Positions 11,522-55,260 of a stretch of DNA of 64,000 nucleotides are shown here, piece by piece (position 1 is the stretch's first letter; the number at the start of each line of letters is the position of its first letter). The translations under genes were made by a program, and so were the position numbers. The notes beneath the pieces were generated by a model. That model had not been told where the DNA came from and made no database searches. It worked only from the letters and a program-made list of their open reading frames with translations. Source of the stretch: Ilyonectria destructans (taxonomy: Eukaryota; Ascomycota; Sordariomycetes; Hypocreales; Nectriaceae); NCBI GenBank assembly GCA_020740775.1, contig JAHEWK010000009.1:620001-684000 (forward strand), written 5' to 3'.

Positions 11522-12615
11522 ATGCGTTCATTCACCCCCTGGCGCCCTGTGGAAGTCGAACGAAGCTTCAGTGGTGGGATTGAGGAGAATAAACTGGGGA
11601 TCTGTCCGGAAATGAATGGGTCACGGGCTTTGAATAGCTTGGACAGAGTAAGAACCCGACGTAGGATTATGTTGGCCAGAGTTAACTGAGTGTTTAGAGA
11701 ATCATTCCGGATATCCTTCGACTAGATACACATGTGTACACATTGTATCTAGTGACGGCAAGCGATTTTGTCAGCGTGCTCCTCCCACAAACGATGTTTT
11801 CCATCTTTGCCTGCATGTCGACCCATTTTACAACAAACCACAAGGGGCTTTCGGTTATCGATTTCCTCCCTCGCCTTCATCTCGTCGTTGCTTGGATCTG
11901 GCTCCAATTATTGGTTCTGGATCTCGCGAACCAACGACTCCCCGATTCAGTGGCCGAAGACGAGATCAACAAACCATGGCGTCCGATTCCTTCGAAACGT
12001 TTAAGCACAGATGGGGCCCGACAACTGCTTGTGGTCAGCATCTTGCTCACGTTGGGATTCGCCACCTACACAGGCAGCATCCCCCAGACTCTGGTCTTGT
12101 TCTTGTTGAACTGGCTGTACAACGATTTGGGTCTGGCAAATGACCACTGGGTATTGCGCAATCTCCTTAATGCACTTGGCATCACATGTATCGGAGCTGG
12201 TGCTACGCAAGTTGCATTCGGTCCAGACTATGGCATTGATGCCAAGGCATTGCACAAGTGGTGGCTGTTGTGTGCCGGCATGATCTTAACAACAATCCAT
12301 GGCCAGGATTTGTATGATCAGGAGGGTGATGCGAAGCGATGCAGAAAAACAGCACCGTTGGTCCTTGGTGACAATATTGCCCGCTGGACCATTCTTGTTC
12401 CAGTACTGGCGTGGAGTGCAATCATGCCAGCTTCGTTAGGCATGAGACCCTCGACAGAGTTGATGGGATGCGTGTTACCGATTCTCTTTGGCTGCCTCGT
12501 TTCGTCCCGCCTCTTTTTCTGGCGTACCGTACAAGCTGACAAAACAACGTTCAAATGCTGGGCTACGTGGAGTGTTTGTCTGTATGCGCTCCCGCTGTTT
12601 AAGAGCATGGAATAG
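11522..12615 (+). CDS. UbiA-family membrane prenyltransferase / terpene cyclase
   Basis: Model: exon 11522-11647, intron 11648-11697 (50 bp, branch-like GTTAACTG), exon 11698-12615; 347 residues. Joining the first exon supplies an ATG, because the long frame alone starts only with GTG at 11734. The body has multiple membrane helices and the motifs of the fungal UbiA group that includes the fumagillin bergamotene synthase Fma-TC: TASDF (62-66), DLANQRLPDSVAEDEINKPWRPIP (117-140), YNDLGLANDHWVLRNLLNALG (183-203) and the second Asp-rich loop QDLYDQEGD (245-253). These Asp clusters bind Mg-diphosphate. Members either transfer a prenyl group to an aromatic acceptor or cyclise a prenyl diphosphate; sequence alone does not decide. 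It is convergent with the cis-prenyltransferase fusion gene, which could supply its substrate. No lesions are seen. Confidence 0.85.
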
Positions 12616-13012: not shown

Positions 13013-14905
13013 CTACACTCCAAGCCGCCTATTTCGCTTTGATAGATCCAGCAAACTTCTTAAGAATGTTGACTGCTTAAGCTCTGGCCAATTCTCCTCG
13101 ACAATGGCAAACTCCGCATGGTGCGACTCCCACAATGCGAAACCACTTAGCCTGTTTTCACCACTTGTCCGCAGTATCGTATCGATTTGTGGTAATCCTA
13201 GCTGCGCCGAGTATGTCTGACGAGATATATCAACCTCGGTGATATTTTCAACTGCCTCTTCCACAGACAATCCTTCCTGTGACACCTTTGCTTTCAAGGC
13301 TAGCCTTGCAGCGCGTGTGAGTTCAGAGCGTCCGCCGTAGCCGATTGCCATTTGGAGGTTGAATTTGGTGTTTTGGGAAGTGGCAGCTTCGGCTTTGTCA
13401 ATCATATGATTGAGATGATCTGGAAGGATGGACCTGTTGCCAATGACTCGGAAACGGATTTCAGGCACGAGAAATGCTGCATCGCCCGCCACTATCTCTT
13501 CAATGTACTCGGCTATCATTGAGAACAGTGGGTTGAGCTCCTGACTTCCACGTTTAAGGTTGTCGTCAGACAGCGCCCAAACAGTGAGGTTTCGAACTCC
13601 AGAGCTAAAAGCCCACGACAAAACCTGTAGGAGCTTATAAGCACCAACTTGGTGGCCGTCTAGAACGCTTCCGAGCCCTCTATGGCGGGAATAGCGGCGG
13701 TTTCCATCCATTATAACACCCAGGTGCTGTGGTAGTTGATCAATGCTATGCAGGACCCTGCCCCGATAGTATGAGCATTTAAGGACCTCCGTAAATTCTT
13801 CGCAGAATCCAGACACGAGGTGGATTGATCGCTTGGCGTTCTTTATCGTTGGTACGTGGGCTTCCATGTCTGGGAAGCGTGGGAGGGATTCATTAGGCAA
13901 TCCTTTAAAAAGACTGTGATCATCGCTGCCAAAAATCTCATGGTAAAGGTCGGCTGAAACATCACCCATTCGAGAGTTTCCAGAAACCAAGAGATCCAAA
14001 GTACCATCCAAGGTCAATGTGCGAGGGCATATGCTGTAGTGAAAATAGGAAAGGAAGCAGCTCGCCTTTCTCAAACACCACCAAAGGGACATGCCAACGA
14101 CGCCACGGCTGCAACTTTCATCTCCAATAACGCTGCCTGATAGTGCCCAGACAAATCTCTTGAAAAGAAACAATGCGGCGAAAGTGAATGGCCGTCTCAA
14201 AAGCCCACCATCTCCCAGTGCGCCTTTTTTCCTCAGCAGATTGCACTGCCGTAAATACTCCTGTTGAATCTTCAGTGTTTGATGTCCATCGAATTGTAAC
14301 TCTTTTCGCAGATATTGTTCCACCTCAGCCATGGTCATCGGCACCTTTCGTCCCAGATCATTTGGGTCGAGCTTATCGGCCATGCTCATGACAGCTTTCA
14401 CTGCTCCGTCTGCTTCCTCCGCAGTTATGCTCCCCAAAAACTCATGTGTCTTAACAATTGCATACACAAATGTTGCAAAAACTATAACATTGGTCTCAAA
14501 GACAAACAACGGAATGGGACGGTGCAGCTTTTGAAGCCAGTTTATGACTTGACGCCGTTCGGAGCTCTTGGATCGGATCATGATAGAAATGAAGGTTACA
14601 GTGCGTACAAGTCGACGCCAGGGGTCGGTCTTGTATGTACTATGGGCATTGATTACTTTCGAAAGTTCTGGGTGTGAAAGCTGGAGACTTGAGGCAACGA
14701 GGACAGCGGAGAGCATAATGTCTCCTCGATCGAAGAGGGCGTGTAGCTTTTCGAAGGAAGGATATTTATCTCTCCACACCAGTGTTGTGGCCTTGATATC
14801 TTTCCAATAGCGTAGCAACAAGGTCGTAACGTAGTAGGCTATTGCGGCGGCGGACAAGATAATTATGAGCAGGCCGCCGTTCAGGAGGAGGAGTTGAGAG
14901 TCCAT
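13013..14905 (-). CDS. Fusion protein: MpaB/latex-clearing-like (DUF2236) domain plus cis-prenyltransferase
   Basis: One uninterrupted ORF of 630 residues from ATG 14905; an in-frame ATG at 15016 would add 37 residues. Residues 5-32 form one membrane helix. Residues about 58-230 resemble the DUF2236/MpaB-like oxygenase family: LQLSHPELSKVINAHSTY (74-91), DPWRRLVRT (94-102) with the R-x-x-x-T pair Arg98/Thr102, and His128 in KLHRP, 26 residues after Thr102, the spacing I expect for the heme-ligand His in bacterial relatives. A second family His (V-H-A-T) is Phe here. Residues 240-390 are a linker with hydrophobic stretches. Residues 392-630 are a cis-prenyltransferase: VIMDGNRRYSRHRG with Asp400, TVWALSDDNLKRG, QMAIGYGGRSEL, LRTSGENRLSGFALWESHHAEF with Arg579 and Glu583, and NWPEL. 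W-x-L-S-x-D-N and LSGFxLWxS look closer to bacterial short-chain Z-FPP synthases than to eukaryotic dehydrodolichyl synthases. Likely an ER-anchored enzyme; the combined reaction is unknown. Confidence 0.85.
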   Translation of the reverse strand: MDSQLLLLNGGLLIIILSAAAIAYYVTTLLLRYWKDIKATTLVWRDKYPSFEKLHALFDRGDIMLSAVLVASSLQLSHPELSKVINAHSTYKTDPWRRLVRTVTFISIMIRSKSSERRQVINWLQKLHRPIPLFVFETNVIVFATFVYAIVKTHEFLGSITAEEADGAVKAVMSMADKLDPNDLGRKVPMTMAEVEQYLRKELQFDGHQTLKIQQEYLRQCNLLRKKGALGDGGLLRRPFTFAALFLFKRFVWALSGSVIGDESCSRGVVGMSLWWCLRKASCFLSYFHYSICPRTLTLDGTLDLLVSGNSRMGDVSADLYHEIFGSDDHSLFKGLPNESLPRFPDMEAHVPTIKNAKRSIHLVSGFCEEFTEVLKCSYYRGRVLHSIDQLPQHLGVIMDGNRRYSRHRGLGSVLDGHQVGAYKLLQVLSWAFSSGVRNLTVWALSDDNLKRGSQELNPLFSMIAEYIEEIVAGDAAFLVPEIRFRVIGNRSILPDHLNHMIDKAEAATSQNTKFNLQMAIGYGGRSELTRAARLALKAKVSQEGLSVEEAVENITEVDISRQTYSAQLGLPQIDTILRTSGENRLSGFALWESHHAEFAIVEENWPELKQSTFLRSLLDLSKRNRRLGV

Positions 14906-15003
14906 GTTGGAGTAAATTGAGCATAGCAATAACAAAGGCGTCGGTGGGTGGTTGTCCTGACTTTGGCCATAGGGAGCAGAGGAGAAGGCCCCGTGAGTTT
15001 GGA

Positions 15004-15010
15004 GTTTATA
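15004..15010 (-). promoter_or_regulatory. TATA-like element of the fusion gene
   Basis: On the minus strand TATAAAC lies about 100 bases before ATG 14905. It overlaps the coding part of the longer alternative frame, which favours 14905 as the true start. Confidence 0.35.
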
Positions 15011-15016
15011 ATACAT

Positions 15017-52519: not shown

Positions 52520-55260
52520 TCAAATGCTTCCAGGCCGACTATTACTTGAGAAGAGCCCTCGCCGAAACATCTTACCGAGCTTGGACAAAACTCTCCCCTT
52601 AGCTTTTACCGGGCCCGGAATCTGGGCTCTCAGAGGCTCTCTGTCTTGCTCTGGAGGCAACCCCACCTCAGTTGCTACCTTTTGGTGAGTTAACGACTGA
52701 GCATCAACTTGGCGTCCAAGTCTCCAGTTGCTGATGGGGTCTTCAAGTTTCTCCCGCTTGCAAATCTCAAAATTGGATTGCTGTCGGATCTCGAACGGGT
52801 TCCTCCATCCCGGGGCAAGAGTATCCAACAGGCTCGGGGTTAACTCCGGGTGCTTCTTGCAGACATATGATGCGAGATCGCACTGGCAGGACAACTCTAG
52901 GAAAGACGTGACATCAGGCTTCTTGAAAAAGCAATCCATAGCGTGCGAGAAGTCCCACCTCGCGAATGCCTTCATGATGATGGCCTCGAGCTCGTCGAGA
53001 GCATCCGTTTCGGGAATCCCTGACGAGACTTCGATGATATGAGCGTAATACAGGCTACCGAGAATCCACTGCTGGAGATGCGGGTGGATGAACGCGCGGC
53101 CATGCAAGTGAATCAGAGAACTCAACTGACCCAAGTTGGTCTCGAGCAGCACTTTGTTGGGGTTGAAATCGGGACCGGCGAGCTGCAGCAGCTTCGACCT
53201 TACGTCTACCGTGTGTAGGAAGTCGATGACAGTTCTGTGGAGGAAGCCGACGCGCTCGGAAAATAGGACACCGGCGCCGGGCTGGGGCGTGATAAATATC
53301 AAGTCTTTGCACTGCGCGATCAGCTGGCGCTTCTTGGTTCCCAAGACTTCAGCTTCGTCGAGGTCCACGTCCGGCCAGTCCTGCAGGAGGCGCAGCGGCT
53401 CCCTCGAGAAGGACCCTTCGCCCAAGTCCATAAAGTAGAACGTTATGACGGGAAAGGTGGTTGAGGCGTGGGCCATGGTGAGAAACAGTCGGGCCGTCCT
53501 CTCCCTGTAGACGTCCTCGATGGTGACGAACATGCGGTCAAAGTACTCACGCAGACCGCTCGGCAGCTCTCGCAGTCGTCGGAGGAGATCTGAGATATCA
53601 TCCTCATTACGCAGGCCTCGGAGCAGAGAGCGAACCACCAAGAAGACCTAGAGGAACACGCCGTGTGCGCGTTCAGTAATCTCCAGGCCGAGCCCCTCTG
53701 CGGCGGCTTTGTTGCGCTGCTGTAGCCTGTTGAAGCGCGTATCCTCGTTCAGGTTGTCCTGGATAAACTTGCGGATGTCGTCGTGGGTGAGATCGTGCAA
53801 GTAGAGCTTCCACTCGCTTTGCTCGAATGCGTCTGAGAAATCTAGCCACTGCCGGCTGGATGCACAGATTTTGATGTCTTGCGATGCCCCAATGTGTCGG
53901 ATGAGACTCACCAACTGCGCGTGATCGCCATCGTACTCATCCAGGCCGTCAATGAAGAGGCAGATCCTGCAGCCCAACATCTTCAAATTGTCCAGTCTCG
54001 CAAAAGTTTCCATCAGCTCTGTACGGCTCCAGGGATGGAAAGTGTCACCGTACTGCGCATTCCACCGATCGGCACACACGGCGGGGATTAGTTGGGGGCG
54101 CTGGTAGAGTATCTGCAGGAGAAGGGATCGAAAGAGGCCTTCTTGGGACTTTTGGATGGCAGTTCCGGGGTTCCAGAAGTAGTGCTTGGCCACGATTAGA
54201 TCCTTCTTGCCGGCCCATTCTTTCAGGAACTCTGTTGTGTTTGGATAGTCCGTGAGAAACCTCATGAGGGTAGACTTTCCAGATCCAGCCTTGCCAGAAA
54301 TCCAGTATATGTCGTCGCTCTGCCGAAGCCATGCGACAAAATTGTTCTTGCCCTTCTCATTAAAGATCCACTGGAGGGTGTTCCTGTGGGCCTCAGCGAC
54401 GGCAAACTCTCGTTCTTTGACTTGGCTGAAGTGCAGCGTGTCCAGAATAGTCTTCCGCTTTTGCTCGAATAGTAGTTCCATCTCGGTGACGTAATTTTTT
54501 ATCTGGACGAATTCTGGTCTCGGTGAGCCATTAGCATCCCACAGTGTCTGTTCCGACTTAATATCTTTAGGAGCGTCCCGTTTCCATAGTTTTGAGGCAC
54601 GGCGTCCAGACGCCTGAGCAGGCGTCTCTTGGGAGTGGTTCGTCTGTTCGGAGTTCAAGCGAAGGCAGTCTATAACTTTATTAAGCTTGTTTTCCATTGT
54701 TTTCTGGACTTCTTCGCTCGAAGAAGCTAAGCGTCGGAGATTCTGAGCGAGATTCTGCTGCTGCTCTCTTCGCATCGGTTAGCAGTTCAGCTATAAATGA
54801 CAGTTCCTCCCCAGTCAGAGGGCGCTCACCGGATCAGAACCAGTAGGTGGGCGGATATTTGATCTCGGAGGTTGTACAGCCTGCGACACAGCTCGTCCAA
54901 CTCGGGCTTCTTTGCCATAATCCTGGCCTTTTGCATGACTCTGTCGAAGCGGACGGCCCCATCTTCAAGTTTGAGGCCATCTAGGATGGTCACGATCTTG
55001 CCGGACATAGCAAGGCAGCTCGCATTGAGATTAACCAAAGCCGTATCCAGCACGGCTCCATTATTGATGGTGTCTTTCGAGCCCTCGATATTCATCAGCG
55101 ACTGCTTCACGCTGTCCACAATGCTCTTCAACTCGACAATCTCCGTCACTGTGCCGTTCGCGCTGTCGAATAACTCAGACGTCCCCAGGATAGCCTTGAT
55201 TGAATATTCGATGAACTGGGCGACATTTCCCGCAAAGGTGAGGGCGACGAGGGCTTCCAT
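52520..55260 (-). pseudogene. NACHT NLR (STAND) gene interrupted by one TAG
   Basis: Exons 55260-54830 and 54767-52520, intron 54768-54829 (62 bp, GTGAGC..AAG); 892 codons with one internal stop. Residues 1-140 are a helical N-terminal domain (MEALVALTFAGNVAQFIEYS) of the kind found on fungal NLRs. The NACHT NTPase follows: Walker A GKAGSGKST at about 302-310, Walker B ICLFIDGLDEYDG at about 412-424, and IKICASSRQW sensor-1. The very conserved HGVFL-W-VFLVVRSLL segment is broken: Trp codon TGG is TAG at 53648-53650. The frame then continues intact for about 375 residues (winged-helix-like part, FLHRTVIDFLHTVDVR, C-terminal tail). No WD, ankyrin or TPR repeats are present. Fungal NLRs mediate non-self recognition and regulated cell death. 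Readthrough, allelic variation or a sequencing error are alternatives to a true null. Confidence 0.85.

Follow-up and report, generated by a model that had tools for sequence, protein, structure and literature searches.

Members of the MPAB/Lcp oxygenase family with published activity, namely Lcp, MpaB and Nro1, cleave carbon-carbon double bonds in isoprenoid chains or polymers, as stated in the accessible portions of PMC5522427 and PMC12724181; the same portions give Arg164, Lys167 and Thr168 as active-site residues of LcpK30. The fungal protein MpaB (mycophenolic acid), namesake of Pfam family PF09995, is ER-bound and acts on a prenyl chain, according to the excerpted texts of PMC12591190 and PMC12724181. 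Among cis-prenyltransferases, a longer alpha-3 region goes with a longer product, and inserting three residues into UppS moved the product from C55 to C70 (PMC7573591, in part). Both domains are known, and their co-occurrence is already recorded in database names and annotations. A first, sequence-only reading of the locus described here knew of no described enzyme joining the two, and we likewise found no description of the fusion in the open-access literature, subscription papers being mostly outside the scope of the search. Kumar et al. 2016 is reportedly the source for the Marchantia cis-prenyltransferase and limonene. The main text of PMC12890914, on Marchantia and transferred genes, contains no prenyl term and mentions no fusion, CPT, DUF2236 or oxygenase.

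The window, as we call the whole stretch of DNA analyzed, consists of 64,000 nucleotides of Ilyonectria destructans (assembly GCA_020740775.1, contig JAHEWK010000009.1, positions 620,001-684,000, forward strand). An open frame on its minus strand, 13013-15016, runs uninterrupted for 667 amino acids; from the ATG at 14905, a start common to relatives such as P0002, P0003 and P0176, it gives a fused coding sequence of 630 amino acids in a single unbroken frame (13013..14905, minus strand, stop codon 13013-13015). The protein aligns over its full length with P0002 and P0003 from fungi (630 amino acids each) and P0036 from a liverwort (639 amino acids). Residues 61-202 match PF09995 (1.7e-16, 61.4 bits against a cut-off of 23) and residues 398-629 match PF01255 (1e-56, 192.4 bits against a cut-off of 27), so that the one open reading frame does join the DUF2236-like domain and the prenyltransferase proposed from sequence, and S77-H78-P79, R98...T102, H128, D400 and R579-T-S-G-E583 all occur at the positions first reported. 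The two-domain match is not a matter of chance, because every row in a 43-row alignment, made up of the window protein and 42 of its 57 relatives, matches both families at E <= 0.001. Fifteen relatives stand outside this alignment (P0004, P0005, P0013, P0024, P0027, P0028, P0030, P0034, P0035, P0038, P0039, P0042, P0048, P0056 and P0057), and both domains are present in three of these, P0005, P0013 and P0048.

The protein begins with a hydrophobic helix, residues 3-39 (14789..14899, minus strand), recognized from the structure model and from hydropathy and probably a membrane anchor. Its top 19-residue hydropathy is 2.46; among the 35 rows in the 43-row alignment with at least 25 residues in this region, 34 contain a hydropathy window of at least 1.6. 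The MPAB/Lcp-type oxygenase domain extends by fold across residues 36-326 (13928..14800, minus strand), well beyond its Pfam stretch of 61-202, and is followed by a poorly conserved linker, residues 327-366 (13808..13927, minus strand), delimited by low pLDDT and low identity: pLDDT is below 50 at residues 333-362 in the structure model, and median identity to the window protein over residues 331-366 is 0.34 for the 28 non-liverwort rows and 0.20 for the 14 liverwort rows. A more conserved block at about residues 286-330, between the two Pfam stretches, is best counted as part of the oxygenase, leaving a short true linker, because the oxygenase fold match, made with a model of residues 1-385, spans 36-326. 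The cis-prenyltransferase domain, residues 391-630 (13016..13735, minus strand), is defined by PF01255, by its match to Rv1086 and by the retained residues D400, N402-R404 and R579-E583.

We propose, with a probability of roughly 45%, that this protein is a bifunctional, membrane-anchored isoprenoid enzyme that makes and then cuts a Z-prenyl chain. The basis for this proposal is the single frame, the presence of both domains with their key residues, the parallel divergence of the two halves and the hydrophobic N-terminal helix. The C-terminal domain would condense IPP onto an allylic diphosphate, yielding a Z-prenyl diphosphate more likely to be medium or long than C10-C15. This product would be released into the membrane next to the N-terminal haem domain, within reach of the oxygenase because the prenyltransferase shares its membrane anchor. 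Using O2, the haem domain would split a single C=C bond, either in the chain itself or in a lipid derived from it, to leave a shorter oxo-isoprenoid. We infer, in other words, that the product of one half is the substrate of the other.

The two halves may instead serve the same pathway while acting on separate molecules, with the Z-prenyl diphosphate attached or cyclized by another enzyme (for instance the neighboring UbiA protein or a terpene synthase) and only later cut or oxidized by the haem domain, as MpaB does with its farnesylated phthalide. We consider this possible, though somewhat unlikely. A UbiA-family gene (open stretch 11698..12615, plus strand; PF01040, 2.2e-17) lies tail to tail with the fusion, 397 bases from its stop, and is a possible pathway partner, either prenyl-attaching or terpene-cyclizing; one paralogue of it, 38% identical, was found in the genome. 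MpaB works on a prenyl chain that is already attached, according to the available part of PMC12724181, and the many liverwort copies of the fusion (8 Calypogeia and 4 Riccia entries out of 57) fit specialized metabolism. The other genes identified in the window, by contrast, make up no clear cluster: the scan, which covered 20 of the 44 open stretches listed (at least 150 amino acids), recorded tubulin-tyrosine ligase-like, RTA1, fungal rhodopsin, epimerase/3-beta-HSD, NmrA, GFO/IDH/MocA, NACHT-type and M14 genes and a P450 piece, with no polyketide synthase among those 20. The NACHT/NPHP3_N-type NTPase stretch (53651-54778, minus strand) is succeeded by a DUF7791 stretch (52523-53647, minus strand), a usual fungal pairing.

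Judged from sequence and predicted fold, the N-terminal half would bind haem and cleave a double bond. R98-L-V-R101-T102 (14600..14614, minus strand) is the presumed counterpart of LcpK30 Arg164, Lys167 and Thr168, and H128 (14522..14524, minus strand) is the presumed counterpart of the proximal haem ligand His198; these haem-site equivalences follow motif order rather than superposition. R101, T102 and H128 are found in 43 of 43 rows and R98 in 40, while among those rows of a larger, 53-row alignment that have a letter at the position, R101 and T102 are each found in 48 of 48 and H128 in 52 of 52. The R-to-H spacing is 30 in the fusion, 34 in LcpK30 and 36 in Nro1. For LcpK30 Glu148 no clear equivalent is apparent around residue 82 of the fusion, a position held by S, A, G or F in the 43 rows and equated with Glu148 by guess. 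The matches listed by whole-model fold searches were all prenyltransferases, and the N-terminal half was therefore modeled alone. That model has the all-helical oxygenase fold, and its best oxygenase match by Foldseek has a weak E-value, 0.092, yet a probability of 1.00. PDB sequence searches with the N-terminal half alone and with a five-row profile found no oxygenase, and comparing the model with viral structures in Foldseek yielded no match at E <= 0.001.

It is conceivable, but in our judgment improbable, that the oxygenase-like half has ceased to be an enzyme and now anchors the prenyltransferase in the membrane and regulates it as its partner, a role similar to that of NgBR towards DHDDS. 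The N-terminal half does diverge faster, with a median identity between liverworts and others of 0.36 as compared with 0.58 for the C-terminal half; 3 of 43 rows have another residue in place of R98; and the motif region is missing from some gene models. A mere anchor, however, would have no need of R101, T102 and H128, and their invariance wherever a letter is present in the 53-row alignment argues against this explanation.

The C-terminal half has the catalytic Asp, the RTSGE motif, the fold and the PF01255 profile of cis-prenyltransferases, from which prenyl transfer may be expected. Its best PDB match is Rv1086 (2vfw), at 2e-41. Likening it to bacterial short-chain Z-FPP synthases, as the sequence-only reading did, was right as to the prokaryotic type, given this best match and the grouping with prokaryotic enzymes, but the short segment of the Rv1086 type is lacking. 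The chain-length segment E456-G489, which comprises alpha-3 and the following loop (13439..13540, minus strand), has 34 residues in the window protein and also in the host genome's Rer2, in 27 of the 28 other non-liverwort fusion rows (the exception is a truncated model) and in 13 of the 14 liverwort rows (33 residues in the remaining one). Counted by eye on alignments, the segment is equally long in human DHDDS (34 residues) but shorter in Bacillus UppS (31) and in Rv1086 (29). Unfused relatives have 29-33 residues, with 33 in 72 of the 108 among the matches listed, so that the fusion segment is just one residue longer than the commonest unfused length. The modeled helix covers residues 454-473; the additional residues may belong to the low-confidence loop that follows, 474-482, in which case the alpha-3 rule need not hold. 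Because the segment is long, the short product first suggested appears doubtful, and we favor a medium-to-long Z-prenyl product over C10-C15; the end of the helix at 473 and the single-residue step keep our confidence in this moderate. Ala444, present in 43 of 43 fusion rows, is aligned with Leu in Rv1086. We take Leu84 of Rv1086 to have a role in chain length, and the numbering of UppS residues, Glu81 and others, is likewise presumed.

These observations bear on the idea of a short-chain enzyme, a neryl or Z-farnesyl diphosphate synthase serving monoterpene or sesquiterpene formation, with a haem half acting on C10-C15 compounds. It draws on the match to Rv1086, on the JGI name of P0002 and P0039, "short-chain Z-isoprenyl diphosphate synthase", and on Marchantia limonene, reportedly made from neryl diphosphate with a cis-prenyltransferase that the available parts of PMC9680858 and PMC13068942 do not specify. 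The five-residue excess over the Rv1086 segment, Ala444 in place of Leu, and the JGI name of P0035, GGPP-specific tritrans,polycis-undecaprenyl-diphosphate synthase, all point the other way, and we give this idea little credence.

A search with the whole protein recovered 57 relatives, and both domains are annotated in 45 of them. Two-domain models occur in fungi (Thelonectria, Clonostachys, Fusarium and Zarea), including nematode-trapping Orbiliaceae (Orbilia, Arthrobotrys, Dactylella and Dactylellina), and in liverworts (Marchantia, Riccia and Calypogeia). PF09995 is not annotated in certain other members of the family, among them P0004 and P0024 from Ilyonectria and P0030 from the lichen fungus Bacidia. 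In 11 of the 12 relatives of this kind, MpCPT3 included, the model starts at an internal methionine past the R-T motif and at least the first 100 residues are missing; the twelfth, P0057, is distant, with 27% identity. The oxygenase may have been lost in some species, or the models may be wrong. In Ilyonectria robusta the halves are annotated as two proteins, P0176 (PF09995 only) and P0024, both listed with a 1043305-base contig. At a run of A, the tail of P0176 goes over into what looks like the next frame of the window; a frameshift at that point, genuine or caused by a sequencing error, would account for the split. That the fusion is merely two adjacent genes read as one, an artefact of annotation or assembly to which the separate I. 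robusta halves might seem to point, is extremely improbable in view of two-domain models in two kingdoms and in most relatives, and of a frame change that would explain the P0176 split.

A search with the N-terminal half gave 39 matches at E <= 1, each a member of the fusion family; such a search reaches relatives that share short exact words, and unfused relatives may exist unseen. Four of the matches, P0176-P0179, are models that carry PF09995 without PF01255, and for P0176 at least the partner appears to lie on the same contig. Orbilia oligospora has two versions of the fusion with the strain tag TWF569 (P0016 and P0179), the second as partial models only, and P0064 belongs to ATCC 24927. 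Single liverwort species have several diverged copies: P0040, P0041, P0045 and P0049-P0053 in Calypogeia fissa, and P0043, P0044, P0046 and P0047 in Riccia sorocarpa. In its host genome the fusion is single-copy, the sole other whole-protein match being an exon of the separate Rer2 gene (E 1.1e-4). Two other PF09995 loci in that genome, L002 and L001, lie on contigs without a PF01255 match and are very different in sequence; they have no prenyltransferase part and carry an LLH-x-x-VR motif absent from the fusion.

A quick tree of the C-terminal half, of the kind proposed by the sequence-only reading, placed the fusions in one clade (support 100) beside prokaryotic enzymes and away from Rer2. 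It contained the host Rer2 and 31 of the 108 listed unfused relatives, themselves drawn from 120 of 254 matches listed; with this one Rer2 row and with long branches flagged, it gives no sign of descent from the Rer2 branch. Liverworts form one clade in it (99), with an unresolved base, and the N-half tree splits liverworts from the rest (99). Distances in one half track those in the other (Spearman 0.86 over 861 non-independent pairs), which, together with the C-half clade, speaks for a single fusion event followed by joint descent, although such a correlation would also follow from a common species history by itself. In a full-length quick tree, whose outgroup lacks the N-terminal half, the other rows are nested among liverworts; in a more careful C-half tree the non-liverwort rows lie on one side of a 77/99 branch, and a liverwort clade is not rejected (p-AU 0.56). 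The rooted trees, in which rows without a named source were provisionally counted with the fungi, thus disagree on which way the transfer between fungi and liverworts went. P0055, a model that ends early, was left out of the distances and of both the C-half and the full-length trees, and P0037, a long branch, was left out of the careful tree. A fuller scenario, in which one polypeptide at the membrane would build a long Z-polyprenyl and cut it at a set bond to give oxo-isoprenoids, much as carotenoid cleavage yields apocarotenoid signals, in a system passed between fungi and liverworts and multiplied in the latter, is speculative and, taken whole, rather doubtful.

A prokaryotic ancestor with the two genes side by side was considered, and set aside on the basis of 69 of the best 80 prenyltransferase loci. 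Genome contigs were scanned with an alignment of nine unfused relatives, and the best 80 loci of a capped list were retained. For 69 of these best prenyltransferase loci, a PF09995 match was found in 2 of 30 and 7 of 39 genomes, and none lay within 10 kb of the prenyltransferase as far as contig positions tell; four contigs were examined for neighbors, and the flanks of two loci by reading frames. An N-half profile of our own making, possibly too narrow for bacterial members, found nothing in the available flanks of the 80 loci. Viral contigs scanned with the 43-row alignment gave 14 pattern matches but no relatives.

If both halves act on one chain, a single protein would provide a direct route from IPP to a cleaved isoprenoid, and a source of oxo-isoprenoids that needs neither carotenoid nor polymer. 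MpCPT6 and MpCPT3 would gain candidate functions in Marchantia, a model plant in which genes are easily removed. The family would add a further case of an enzyme architecture common to fungi and liverworts, and offer users of enzymes naturally occurring proteins in which an alkene-cleaving oxygenase is joined to a chain builder.

Each known system resembles the fusion in part. LcpK30 (5o1m) and the rubber oxygenases are extracellular and, unlike the fusion, have no prenyltransferase part. Structure 8s1j, which we take to be a t-anethole oxygenase of the bacterial haem C=C-cleaving class, has 7% identity to the N-terminal half by structural alignment; this class and Nro1 are bacterial, with no prenyltransferase part described. 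MpaB similarly has no prenyltransferase part described, and its substrate is a farnesyl chain bound to an aromatic compound. Rv1086 is the closest solved relative of the C-terminal half, but is an unfused C15 enzyme with the shorter, 29-residue segment. The dehydrodolichyl diphosphate synthases Rer2 and DHDDS share the segment length of the fusion, but the host's Rer2 is far off in the tree and the partner of DHDDS is NgBR, not an oxygenase. The remaining counterparts are from a plant, Marchantia polymorpha: the model of MpCPT3 retains the end of the oxygenase and the cis-prenyltransferase, and MpCPT6, like the fusion, has both Pfam domains.
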